A DNA stretch of 64,000 nt from an uncultured Ignavibacteriales bacterium (GTDB lineage: Bacteria > Bacteroidota > Ignavibacteria > Ignavibacteriales > Ignavibacteriaceae): NCBI GenBank assembly GCA_903929035.1, contig CAIYTF010000127.1, forward strand, positions 1 through 64,000, given 5' to 3'. The translations under genes were made by a program, and so were the position numbers. Below the pieces are notes generated by a model. That model was not told where the DNA came from. It did no database searches and was given only the letters and a program-made list of their open reading frames with translations. This document shows, piece by piece, positions 1-62,322 of this stretch (position 1 is the first letter of the stretch; each line of letters starts with the position of its first letter).

Positions 1-71
1 CGTTGGTGGCTAAATAACTACGCGGCGTTAATTTGCCCCCCCCCCCCCCCATCAGGAGACTGAGTAGTTAC
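1..71. repeat. Right end of family-1 MITE-like repeat (copy E), truncated by the window start and containing a 15-bp poly-C tract
   Basis: aactacgcggcgt.aatttgccccc and caggagactgagtagttac match copies at 4118 and 26326. Confidence 0.75.
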
Positions 72-4066: not shown

Positions 4067-4117
4067 CTTTTTTTATTGATATGAATGATACAAAATATAT
4101 CCAATAGTCCCAAAAAG

Positions 4118-4382
4118 ATAACTACTCAGCCTGTTCTTGAATTTGTCCCAGCGGGACTAAATTTGAATAACCGTGAGTGCTAACTCACGGAAAAGTAAGC
4201 CCAAACAAATAACGTCCCCGAAAGGGGCGAACTAATGCGGCGTGAATTTGCCCCCTTCGGGGACATAGATGCTTTTTATCATTCTCCCGTGAGTTGTCAC
4301 TCACGGTTATTCAAATTTAGTCCCGTTGGGACATAATATCCGTAACGAATATTTTCTTGATTTCAGGAGACTGAGTAGTTAC
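4118..4382. repeat. Family-1 MITE-like multi-hairpin element, copy A (265 bp)
   Basis: TIR ATAACTACTCAG / CTGAGTAGTTAC; flanking direct repeat CCAAAAAG at 4110-4117 and 4383-4390; homologous to 26326-26594 and 39382-39613. Confidence 0.9.
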
Positions 4383-4549
4383 CCAAAAAGATATTTGAAG
4401 ATGGATGTACAACAATAAACAGTTTCTTGTATTATTTCAATTATTTGCTATTTTTTGCAGGTGAATAAAGTTGTTTTTTAGCAAATTACTTTGATATTCA
4501 CTCAAACTATAAAACATTCCGACTTTTAAACTTTTTTGATTGCGGTTTA

Positions 4550-5179: not shown

Positions 5180-5433
5180 GTAACTATTTAGGTAGTCTTA
5201 CTATTCTCCGTTAGGAGAAAAATGTTTGTAAAAAAAAGCAAAACCACAAGTCTATTTTTCCCGTTAGAGCCTGTCCCGTTTCACGGGAGAATATATGTCG
5301 TTTTAGGGACAGGTAACGAACAAAACATATATTCCCTACGGGAAATCACGGCTGCACGTGGTATGTTTTTTCTACAAACATTTATTCCCTATCGGGAAAC
5401 AAAAAATACTCGTTTTTTTACCTAAACAGTTAC
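5180..5433. repeat. Family-2 MITE-like element (254 bp) with perfect 8-bp TSD
   Basis: TIR GTAACTATTTAGGT / ACCTAAACAGTTAC; TSD ATTTTTTT at 5172-5179 and 5434-5441; core matches 22747-22934 in inverse orientation. Confidence 0.92.
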
Positions 5434-22746: not shown

Positions 22747-22934
22747 ATAACTGTTTAGGTCAAAAATAGTAGATATATTTATTTCCCGTTAGGGAATAAA
22801 TGTTTGTAGAAAAAACATACCACCCGTAGCCGTGATTTCCCGTAGGGAATATATGTTTTATTCGTTACCTGTCCCTAAAACGACATATATTCTCCCGTGA
22901 AACGGGACAGGCTCTAACGGGAAAAAACAGTTAC
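22747..22934. repeat. Family-2 MITE-like element (188 bp)
   Basis: Ends ATAACTGTTTAGGT / AAAACAGTTAC; core shared with 5180-5433; 7-bp flanking repeat AAATTTC (22740-22746 and 22935-22941). Confidence 0.88.
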
Positions 22935-26325: not shown

Positions 26326-26594
26326 GTAACTACTCAGCCTGTTCTTGAATTTGTCCCAACGGGACTAAATTTGAATAACCGTGAGTGCTAACTCACGGAA
26401 AAGTAAGCCCAGACTAATAACGTCCCCGAAAGGGGGCGAACTAACTACGCGGCGTGAATTTGCCCCCTTCGGGGACATAGATGCTTTTTATCATTCTCCC
26501 GTGAGTTGTCACTCACGGTTATTCAAATTTAGTCCCTTTGGGACATAATATCAGTACCGTATATTTTCTTGATTTCAGGAGGCTGAGTAGTTAC
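26326..26594. repeat. Family-1 MITE-like element, copy B (269 bp)
   Basis: GTAACTACTCAG...CTGAGTAGTTAC, near-identical to 4118-4382; no target duplication seen. Confidence 0.9.
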
Positions 26595-29105: not shown

Positions 29106-29130
29106 TTTATCTCTTTATTAGTTTCATATA

Positions 29131-29213
29131 GGGCTCGTTCAGAAATAACATTAACACTTTCTCACGCGAAGATTATCTTTAAGAAGATGTAAAAGTTATT
29201 TCTTAATAAGCCC
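29131..29213. repeat. Family-3 MITE-like element (83 bp)
   Basis: GGGCTCGTTCAGAAATAAC / GTTATTTCTTAATAAGCCC imperfect TIR; homologous to 32507-32588; possible 3-bp ATA duplication. Confidence 0.8.
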
Positions 29214-32507: not shown

Positions 32508-32588
32508 TCCTTGTAAAGAAATAACCTTTACAACTTCTAAATCTAATCTTCGCGTGAGAAAATGTTAATGTTATTTCTGAACAAGCCC
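32507..32588. repeat. Family-3 MITE-like element filling the gap between convergent genes
   Basis: GTCCTTGTAAAGAAATAAC...GTTATTTCTGAACAAGCCC; inverse of 29131-29213; TAA on both outer sides when read on the minus strand. Confidence 0.8.
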
Positions 32589-33782
32589 TTACGCGGGATT
32601 CCTTTTTAAAATTAAAATAGTTGCATCATCGTCCCATTTTAGCCCTTGTCCAAATTCGTCCGCGATATTAAACAAGTCTTCTAAAATCTCTTTAGCTGTT
32701 TTATGCCGTACATTTTTCACAACGTCAATAAGCAGCTCATTGCCGAAAAATTCTCCTTCGGGACTAACACGCTCGACAATACCATCGCTAAAGATAACCA
32801 GCACGCTGCCTTTTTCCATAAACACGAAACTACGGCTAAGTTCCATTTTAGGGAATGCCCCAATAACCATACCCGTGGGCTGCAATTCAGTTACTTTGTT
32901 ATCATAAATAAGATACGGCGATGGATGCCCCGCGTTCATATAGAACAAATTGCCGCTTGCTTCAAGCTCGCCAAAAAACAGAGAGATAAAACTTGACGAA
33001 TAAGTTCCGCGATATACAACCTCATTCAATTTTTTGAGCGTGTGTACCATCTTCATATGCTGTTCAACTCCCATACGAAGTCCCGTAACCACATCGCGGA
33101 CCATCAAAGCCGCCGGAAGCCCGTGCCCGCTCGCGTCACCTAAACAAAACCCAAACTCATTTTTATCAAAGTTGAAAAAATCGTATAAGTCGCCGCCAAC
33201 AAGCTCCGCTGCCTGCGAGAAAACTGCAATATCATATCCTTCAAAACGCGGTTCTTCGGACGGCAGCAAACTTTGCTGAATTTTCGCGGTCATCTGCAAT
33301 TCAGATTTTAACGCCTCCGAAAAAAGGCGATAATTTAACGCGCGCCGAATAGCATTAAAACAAAAATCAATTTCATCGCGTACCCATCCGGCGGTCAATT
33401 CAAAAACAAACAGCCACGAAGTATCAAGACTATTCACAACCAACGCCGCCGGAATAGAATACTCGCGTTTACGAACTGCCCTTTTGTCTATCGTAAAATC
33501 TTTATTATCAAAAATGTAAATGCTCGTTTTCAACAGTGCCTGCATTGGTTTGGTATCGCCATCCAATTGTTTCAGCGCGCCGTTATTATCCTTCGGGTAT
33601 AGCAGCTCAAAAAACAGCCCGCGGTTTTCGTATATCCTGCCGTGACAAATATGCAAGTCGGTTCCGAAATTCAGTTCAAATTGTTTTAACAGTTCAATCA
33701 AATAGTCAGCACCGGAAACATTGTGTGATTTGCTTGCCAGCAAGGTGTCTATTTTTCTGTAAAATATTTTAGGATCTATCAT
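32589..33782 (-). CDS. PP2C-type SpoIIE family serine/threonine phosphatase
   Basis: QQSLLPSEEPRFEGYDIAVFSQAAELVGGDLYDFF, GDASGHGLPAALMVRDV, LVIFSDGIVE. Confidence 0.93.
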   Translation of the reverse strand: MIDPKIFYRKIDTLLASKSHNVSGADYLIELLKQFELNFGTDLHICHGRIYENRGLFFELLYPKDNNGALKQLDGDTKPMQALLKTSIYIFDNKDFTIDKRAVRKREYSIPAALVVNSLDTSWLFVFELTAGWVRDEIDFCFNAIRRALNYRLFSEALKSELQMTAKIQQSLLPSEEPRFEGYDIAVFSQAAELVGGDLYDFFNFDKNEFGFCLGDASGHGLPAALMVRDVVTGLRMGVEQHMKMVHTLKKLNEVVYRGTYSSSFISLFFGELEASGNLFYMNAGHPSPYLIYDNKVTELQPTGMVIGAFPKMELSRSFVFMEKGSVLVIFSDGIVERVSPEGEFFGNELLIDVVKNVRHKTAKEILEDLFNIADEFGQGLKWDDDATILILKRNPA

Positions 33783-35036: not shown

Positions 35037-35209
35037 TAGGACTTGTTCAGAAAACTTTCTCACGTGCAGACCGCGAAGGTTAAATTTAGGTAACTACTCA
35101 GCCTGTTCTTGAATTTAGTCCCTTTGGGACATAATATCAGTACCGTATATTTTCTTGATTTCAGGAGGCTGAGTAGTTACAAATTTAGAAGCTGTAAAGG
35201 TTATTTCTT
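35037..35209. repeat. Family-3 MITE-like element interrupted by family-1 copy D
   Basis: ggacttgttcag..actttctcacgtgcagaccgcgaaggttaaatttag / aagctgtaaaggttatttcttt matches the inverse of 32507-32588. Confidence 0.7.
35090..35180. repeat. Family-1 internal-deletion derivative, copy D (91 bp), with perfect 8-bp TSD
   Basis: GTAACTACTCAGCCTGTTCTTGAATTT joined to AGTCCCTTTGGGACATAATATC...GAGTAGTTAC; TSD AAATTTAG at 35082-35089 and 35181-35188. Confidence 0.92.
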
Positions 35210-39381: not shown

Positions 39382-39613
39382 GTAACTGATATTATGTCCC
39401 AACGGGACTAAATTTGAATAACCGTGAGTAACAACTCACGGGAGAATGATAAAAAGCATCTATGTCCCCGAAGGGGGCAAATTCACGCGGCGTAGTTAGT
39501 TCGCCCCCTTCGGGGACGTTATTAGTTTGGGCTTACTTTTCCGTGAGTTAGCACTCACGGTTATTCAAATTTAGTCCCTTTGGGACAAATTCAAGAACAG
39601 GCTGAGTAGTTAC
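39382..39613. repeat. Family-1 MITE-like element, copy C (232 bp), inverted relative to A/B, one end shortened
   Basis: gtaactgatattatgtcccaacggg...caagaacaggctgagtagttac; possible imperfect flanking repeat CTTTTTT. Confidence 0.9.
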
Positions 39614-61725: not shown

Positions 61726-61834
61726 AGCACCTTTCGGAATTTACTTATTTGCTGCATCAGCTAAATATTTTTTTATCTATTACCTTATACCAAACCAAGA
61801 ACAAGTTAAATTAAATCAAGCGTGTTATTCAGAG

Positions 61835-62090
61835 AACTCTGAAAGAGTTCAATTTGAATAACCGTGAGTTTCGAGCCGCGAAGCGGTAGAAGCTCACGGA
61901 AACGAAACAAACAAGATCCGGTGTACTGTGTAAGGGGACAACCAAAATCCGGTATAATCAGTAACTTTTTGGCAATATTGAGTGGTAAGTTCGCCTCCTA
62001 CGGAGACGAGAGATTGGGCTCTGCGCGTTTTACCGTGAGCATCGCACCGCTTCGCGCACGGTTATTCAAATTTTACTCCTTTGGAGTAAT
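61835..62090. repeat. Diverged relative of family-1 structured repeat (copy F)
   Basis: Shares aatttgaataaccgtgag / cacggttattcaaatttta; hairpins AACTC-TGAAA-GAGTT and ACTCC-TTT-GGAGT; no GTAA terminus. Confidence 0.65.
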
Positions 62091-62322
62091 GCCGCGAGGA
62101 TTCCATTTACTTTGTATCGGCATACTATTCAACTTGTTGTCGGTTTTGTATTAGATTGAAAAAGCCTGATTTTAATTCTATATGTAATCAAGTACGCCGG
62201 AGCAAATGAGTCTCAGAATAGAATAATAAAATTTTCTTTTTATACAACTTGTTTTCTTCTTAATTCAGTGCCAATTTAGTATTAGAATTTTATGATACTT
62301 ACTTACAGGAGCTTTTAGTTTT

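Follow-up and report, generated by a model that had tools for sequence, protein, structure and literature searches.

A putative IS66-mobilised MITE family with REPIN-like cargo in an uncultured Ignavibacteriales bacterium

Positions 4118-4382 of the window (the whole stretch of 64,000 nucleotides that was analysed) form a 265-bp palindromic array of hairpins, of which dozens of copies are present in the genome. In a preliminary description it was presented as a palindromic multi-hairpin MITE with RNA-like tetraloops, which raises the question of what moves this element and what its hairpins are kept for. Our analysis indicates that the element is probably a non-autonomous MITE mobilised by IS66 that carries a REPIN-like cargo. 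It represents a new family that combines mobile repeats of two known kinds, and not a new RNA.

Ends, copies and mobility of family 1

The hairpins and the long inverted arms were indeed present in the array, and the MITE assignment is borne out by terminal inverted repeats (TIRs), target-site duplications (TSDs) and many copies. The true ends of the element had been overlooked: they consist of outer inverted repeats of 12 bp, GTAACTACTCAG...CTGAGTAGTTAC, and are bordered by target duplications of 8 bp. The family (family 1) thus has all the features of a MITE, being short and without coding capacity, with terminal inverted repeats, TSD and many dispersed intergenic copies. No ORF of at least 90 aa was found within 4118-4382, and at the 15 copies examined no long ORF crosses the emptied site. 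The genome search yielded 183 candidates and 40 scored copies, or 80 matches if the palindrome is counted in each orientation. The 14-mer GTAACTACTCAGCC was counted 125 times in this genome, where its reversed control has 0 occurrences. G469, a genome of the same family and a different genus, has the 14-mer 13 times and two other genomes have it once each; it is absent from 162 of the 166 genomes of the order. The features of copy A and of the other elements in the window are collected in Table 1.

Table 1. Elements of families 1 and 2 in the window and their parts
Feature	Position	Strand	Basis or remark
Copy A, full-length 265-bp putative IS66-type MITE	4118-4382	+	End-to-end alignment with 19 other copies; TIRs and TSD
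Left 8-bp target-site duplication CCAAAAAG, copy A	4110-4117	.	Identical to 4383-4390
Left terminal inverted repeat ATAACTACTCAG, copy A	4118-4129	+	GTAACTACTCAG in most copies
Left REP-like unit: hairpin 1 GTCCC/GGGAC, linker TAAATTTGAATAA, hairpin 2 CCGTGAGT/ACTCACGG	4144-4190	+	Covariance model R1 (itself including units from this genome), 64.4 bits, E 9.7e-15
Central hairpin CCCC/GGGG	4216-4227	+	Loop differs between copies
Second central hairpin CCCC/GGGG, TTC loop	4252-4262	+	
Right REP-like unit, inverted relative to left unit	4287-4333	-	R1 (itself including units from this genome), 68 bits, E 1.2e-15
Right terminal inverted repeat CTGAGTAGTTAC, copy A	4371-4382	-	
Right 8-bp target-site duplication CCAAAAAG, copy A	4383-4390	.	
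Copy B, full length	26326-26594	+	94% identity; flanking 8-mers unmatched
Copy C, hairpin array kept	39382-39613	-	One end mostly lost by internal deletion (GTAACT joined to GATATTATG)
Copy D, 91-bp internal-deletion derivative, both TIRs	35090-35180	+	AAATTTAG on each side (perfect 8-bp duplication)
Copy E, right-end fragment	1-71	+	Terminates in CTGAGTAGTTAC at 60-71
Family-2 element, ends ATACCAAACC...GGTTTTGTAT	61787-62151	+	Inverted REP-like units 61835-61899 (+) and 62033-62088 (-)

Copies A, B and C had been said to keep the whole architecture, which is true of A and B and, for C, of the hairpin array only. As for the two presumed deletion derivatives, D is an internal deletion with intact ends, and E a right-end fragment. 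A 91-bp copy built like D was found again at a second locus (L010). The fragment E includes a run of 15 C (window 36-50), a possible assembly artefact, and a near-perfect palindromic 81-bp element with family-1 ends was seen at L143 (1501-1581).

Perfect 8-bp duplications border six of the 13 complete copies of ~265 bp (L001, L002, L012, L013, L016 and L018). The flanks of six others are unmatched, perhaps as a result of recombination or of assembly joins, and one copy is cut by a contig end. Perfect duplications are also found at copy D and at L234 (TGTCACAC), a 200-bp element that has family-1 ends and no hairpin units. Since both of these lack the array, their sequences indicate that the ends suffice for insertion and that the hairpin array would be cargo, not needed for movement. 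Another reading gives the hairpins a role in IS66-type transposition itself, through transposase binding or cruciform formation, so that they would be kept for movement. It would agree with an array that is colinear in two genera, but the array-free D and L234 share the ends and the perfect duplications, and the internal unit also occurs in a second family whose ends are unrelated; we consider it very improbable.

Which transposase may act on these ends is suggested by their surroundings. The ends of IS66-family elements, like those of family 1, generally start with GTAA. Degenerate 3′ ends of IS66 transposase genes adjoin the family-1 TIR at four loci (L144, L145, L146 and L152), where they read '...VVTANE*', followed by ~70 bp to the TIR. 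The longest remnant, at L152, matches NCBIfam NF033517 (transpos_IS66) at 1.5e-13, and its match to PF03050 (Pfam) is slightly under the cut-off. Other IS66 fragments in the genome terminate in a related repeat, GTAACTGTTTAG. In addition, IS66 elements are known to make 8-bp target duplications (PMC3281130). An intact IS66 transposase was not found in this genome, in which only C-terminal fragments passed the Pfam cut-off, nor was any IS66 gene found in G469; both assemblies are fragmented, and such assemblies often lose multi-copy IS genes. As no intact gene was found, we infer that IS66 acts in trans: an IS66-family transposase would recognise the 12-bp ends GTAACTACTCAG and drive insertion, mostly into intergenic DNA, with formation of the 8-bp duplication.

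Conserved stems and variable loops

The preliminary description had named GNRA and UUCG tetraloops as a feature of the family and had suggested selection on a folded transcript or single-stranded DNA. Across an alignment of 20 copies, the loop of the first central hairpin reads GAA, GAAA, GAAAA, GAAAAA, GAAAT, GATA or GAAC, with the exact GAAA in four. The second central hairpin is CCCCTTCGGGG in most copies of this genome and ...TTCAGGG in G469, and the loops of hairpin 1 have three bases (AAC, AAA, GAA, AAT and others) and are not tetraloops. Conserved GNRA/UUCG loops were ruled out, as the length and the sequence of the loops vary while the stems stay.

Family-1 copies of the second genus, in G469, are colinear with those of this genome and align with them end to end; duplications are visible at L233 (AAAATTAA) and L243 (GAATTAAT). 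Several G469 copies have GTGCC/GGCAC as hairpin 1, and the left hairpin 2 of G469 reads CCGCGGGT/ACCCGTGG where this genome has CCGTGAGT/ACTCACGG. Over the local stems 97.8% of the cells were paired and 19 double-sided changes were counted, which none of 500 shuffles reached. Stem-2 changes in five G469 copies (TA to CG and AT to GC), which amount to few independent events as these copies are related, leave the long-range partners unpaired or in wobble pairs. Most G469 copies form all 26 local pairs versus 22-24 of the 26 long-range pairs. Because the compensatory changes in the local stems of G469 break the pairing of the long-range arms, the short hairpins appear to be the kept unit; a single long cruciform as the kept structure is less supported, as long-range pairs are lost in G469. 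The claim that the element goes beyond simple terminal repeats is upheld by local stems that co-vary across genera and phyla. The covariation means that the stems are kept; alone it cannot separate RNA from single-stranded DNA, nor selection from swapping of hairpin modules. Changes in a stem often go with changes in its loop, so that an exchange of entire hairpin modules would explain the pattern just as well as selection acting point by point.

Could the element nevertheless be a structured RNA, either a small RNA or a bidirectional terminator or mRNA stabiliser, that was selected as a transcript and spread as a MITE? The fold of 4118-4382 is very stable, with an energy of -135.5 kcal/mol that lies far outside the range of shuffles (z = -16), although such an energy is expected of any near-perfect palindrome. 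The compensatory changes in the stems and the intergenic position of the copies would also suit a transcript. However, the loops are unconserved, no U-run follows the hairpins, and the Rfam 15 scan of the window returned a single tRNA and no match to the element. Both strands of a palindrome can form the stems, and the signal is thus not strand-specific. Moreover, family-1 units are also found beside Y1 transposase genes (see below); Y1/HUH transposases are the enzyme class that acts on hairpins in single-stranded DNA. We therefore regard selection on a folded transcript as improbable.

The internal unit, family 2 and Y1 transposase genes

The internal unit, hairpin 1-AATTTGAATAA-hairpin 2, is present in family 1 as an inverted pair. 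As in REP/REPIN sequences, short hairpin units form inverted doublets (4144-4190 on the plus and 4287-4333 on the minus strand); a GTAG/GTGG tag was not found at the foot of the hairpins, where the linker is AATTTGAATAA. Atypical structures have been described among RAYT genes (subclass 2.6; PMC6006769). The linker AATTTGAATAACCG has 94 + 81 occurrences in this genome. It is common to family 1 and family 2, the latter comprising the element at 61787-62151 and its relatives, with unrelated ends ATACCAAACC...GGTTTGGTAT. Hairpin 1 of family 2 is TACTCC/GGAGTA or GAACTCT/AGAGTTC, and no target duplication of this family was evident. The element at 61787-62151 has a nested hairpin within hairpin 2, and at L069 (~1428-1916) a family-2 element is nested in a GTAACTGTTTAG-ended element with the duplication AAAAATTG.

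When GTDB contigs were scanned for the linker, at least 12 stretches were found, seven of which, among the matches listed, have hairpins on both sides. These seven belong to MAGs named Niabella, Chitinophagaceae, Cloacimonadota (two), Ignavibacteria, Bacteroidia and Prolixibacteraceae. In 21 of the 28 units of these MAGs both stems reach at least 5 bp, with 16 and 11 different stem sequences; in shuffled flanks the corresponding rates per stem are ~8% and 10%. An alignment of 20 units (A2) showed double-sided changes at 10 of 14 pairs and a score of 0.552 versus 0.249 for shuffled units, values in which pairing is inflated as the A2 units were picked for having stems; the stem counts of the 28 units and alignment A1 are free of that bias. 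An amplified linker was not found in the sampled relatives and phylum members (a sample without G469), which gave isolated matches without hairpins, and the plasmid collection gave no DNA match.

Y1 transposases are present in all seven MAGs that hold hairpin-flanked linkers. Near the Y1 genes of these MAGs the exact linker is almost absent, and the divergent units were recognised only by inspection of the flanks and through a covariance model of the unit that had been built without any RAYT locus. The model matched at the Y1 locus of the Chitinophagaceae MAG (L184, E 3.9e-9), in the Bacteroidia MAG with units on both sides of the gene (L192, E 6.3e-8) and in the Ignavibacteria MAG, where the gene lies between inverted units (L183, 1.9e-4 and 6.9e-4). 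None of the 32 control loci scored above 16 bits, and almost all of their hits fell on the chance matches to the linker by which these loci had been selected. Across the Y1 loci of other genomes the unit is present at just 3 of 30. The Y1 genes of L184 and L192 match NF033573 (IS200/IS605) and, weakly, NF047646 (REP-associated tyrosine transposase).

In this genome no RAYT matched to the family-1 unit was found; its two Y1 genes, L095 and L096, carry other REP types. The RAYT-like Y1 gene of L096 (1101-2115) is flanked by units of a hairpin plus ATGTTTGTAG, and the same units fill GTAACTGTTTAG-ended elements, of which one of 238 bp with the duplication ATTTTTTC adjoins the gene. This second REP type thus lies within GTAACTGTTTAG elements and beside its RAYT, apparently a second case of REP units within IS66-type ends. 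At L095 (1318-1432), an IS200/IS605-type transposase gene is followed by a perfect 34-bp inverted repeat with a GC-rich palindrome.

A plain REPIN/BIME that is moved by RAYT, with outer repeats that are coincidental or a TIRYT-type end, could account for the inverted pair of REP-like units and for units that adjoin RAYT genes in other genomes. This is hardly credible for the whole element, given the exact 12-bp ends, the 8-bp duplications, which largely refute it, the IS66 gene remnants at family-1 ends and a genome without a RAYT that bears the family-1 unit. We favour instead the IS66-mobilised MITE, whose cargo would consist of the inverted pair of REP-type units (hairpin 1, the conserved linker AATTTGAATAA and hairpin 2) and the two central GC hairpins. 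Units of this type flank some Bacteroidota RAYT/Y1 HUH genes, and the single-stranded DNA form should present the hairpins to such an enzyme. The MITE may have acquired the unit by capture of a REPIN, and dispersal in this genome would now proceed via the transposon ends and not via RAYT. More tentatively, REP-type units might in general escape dependence on RAYT by riding the ends of other transposons, having entered at least two families here (the IS66-type and ATACCAAACC), and most of the REP copies in this genome could be due to these carriers rather than to RAYT.

Other dispersed repeats were observed in the window. A 254-bp element, GTAACTATTTAG...CTAAACAGTTAC, at 5180-5433 has ATTTTTTT on each side and a different REP type (CTCCGTTAGGAG...TTTGTA); it is overlapped by one arm of a 165-nt inverted repeat pair (5255-5419 and 22762-22926), the arms of which are 92% alike and 17 kb apart. 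Another dispersed repeat (TTCAGAAATAACATTAACACTTTCTCACGCGAAGA) forms an inverted pair at 29130-29181 and 32538-32589, and similar sequences adjoin elements on other contigs (L025, L028 and L069).

Relation to known mobile repeats

The element joins two groups of small repeats that are usually treated apart, the MITEs of DDE transposases and the REPs of HUH transposases. It also defines a REP unit, present in Bacteroidota and Cloacimonadota, whose linker is not of the GTAG type and whose covariance signature can be used in searches. The genome offers a test case for whether REP hairpins persist in their own right where the matching RAYT is missing.

With IS66 insertion sequences and IS-derived MITEs, family 1 shares the 8-bp duplication (PMC3281130) and the transposase remnants beside its ends, whereas its interior is an inverted pair of REP-type units and not an internally deleted IS66. 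The REP/REPIN (BIME) sequences of RAYT (TnpA-REP) are likewise short imperfect palindromes in inverted pairs, intergenic and in many copies (PMC3116915, PMC6006769), and the family-1 unit, like them, is found beside Y1 genes. It differs from them in its hairpin-linker-hairpin form, in AATTTGAATAA replacing the GTAG/GTGG tag and in copies that sit within DDE-type ends with target duplications. TIRtrons and TIRYT repeats also tie terminal repeats to mobile small repeats (PMC3733652), but the ends of family 1 adjoin IS66 genes and not Y1 tyrosine transposase genes. Finally, the BrickBuilt MITE of Porphyromonas gingivalis (PMC4596501) resembles family 1 in being a Bacteroidota MITE whose core is foldable and rich in repeats and whose ends are IS-like; in contrast, its core is a tandem 23-nt repeat and its ends are of the ISPg type, and neither IS66 ends nor RAYT-type units were reported for it.
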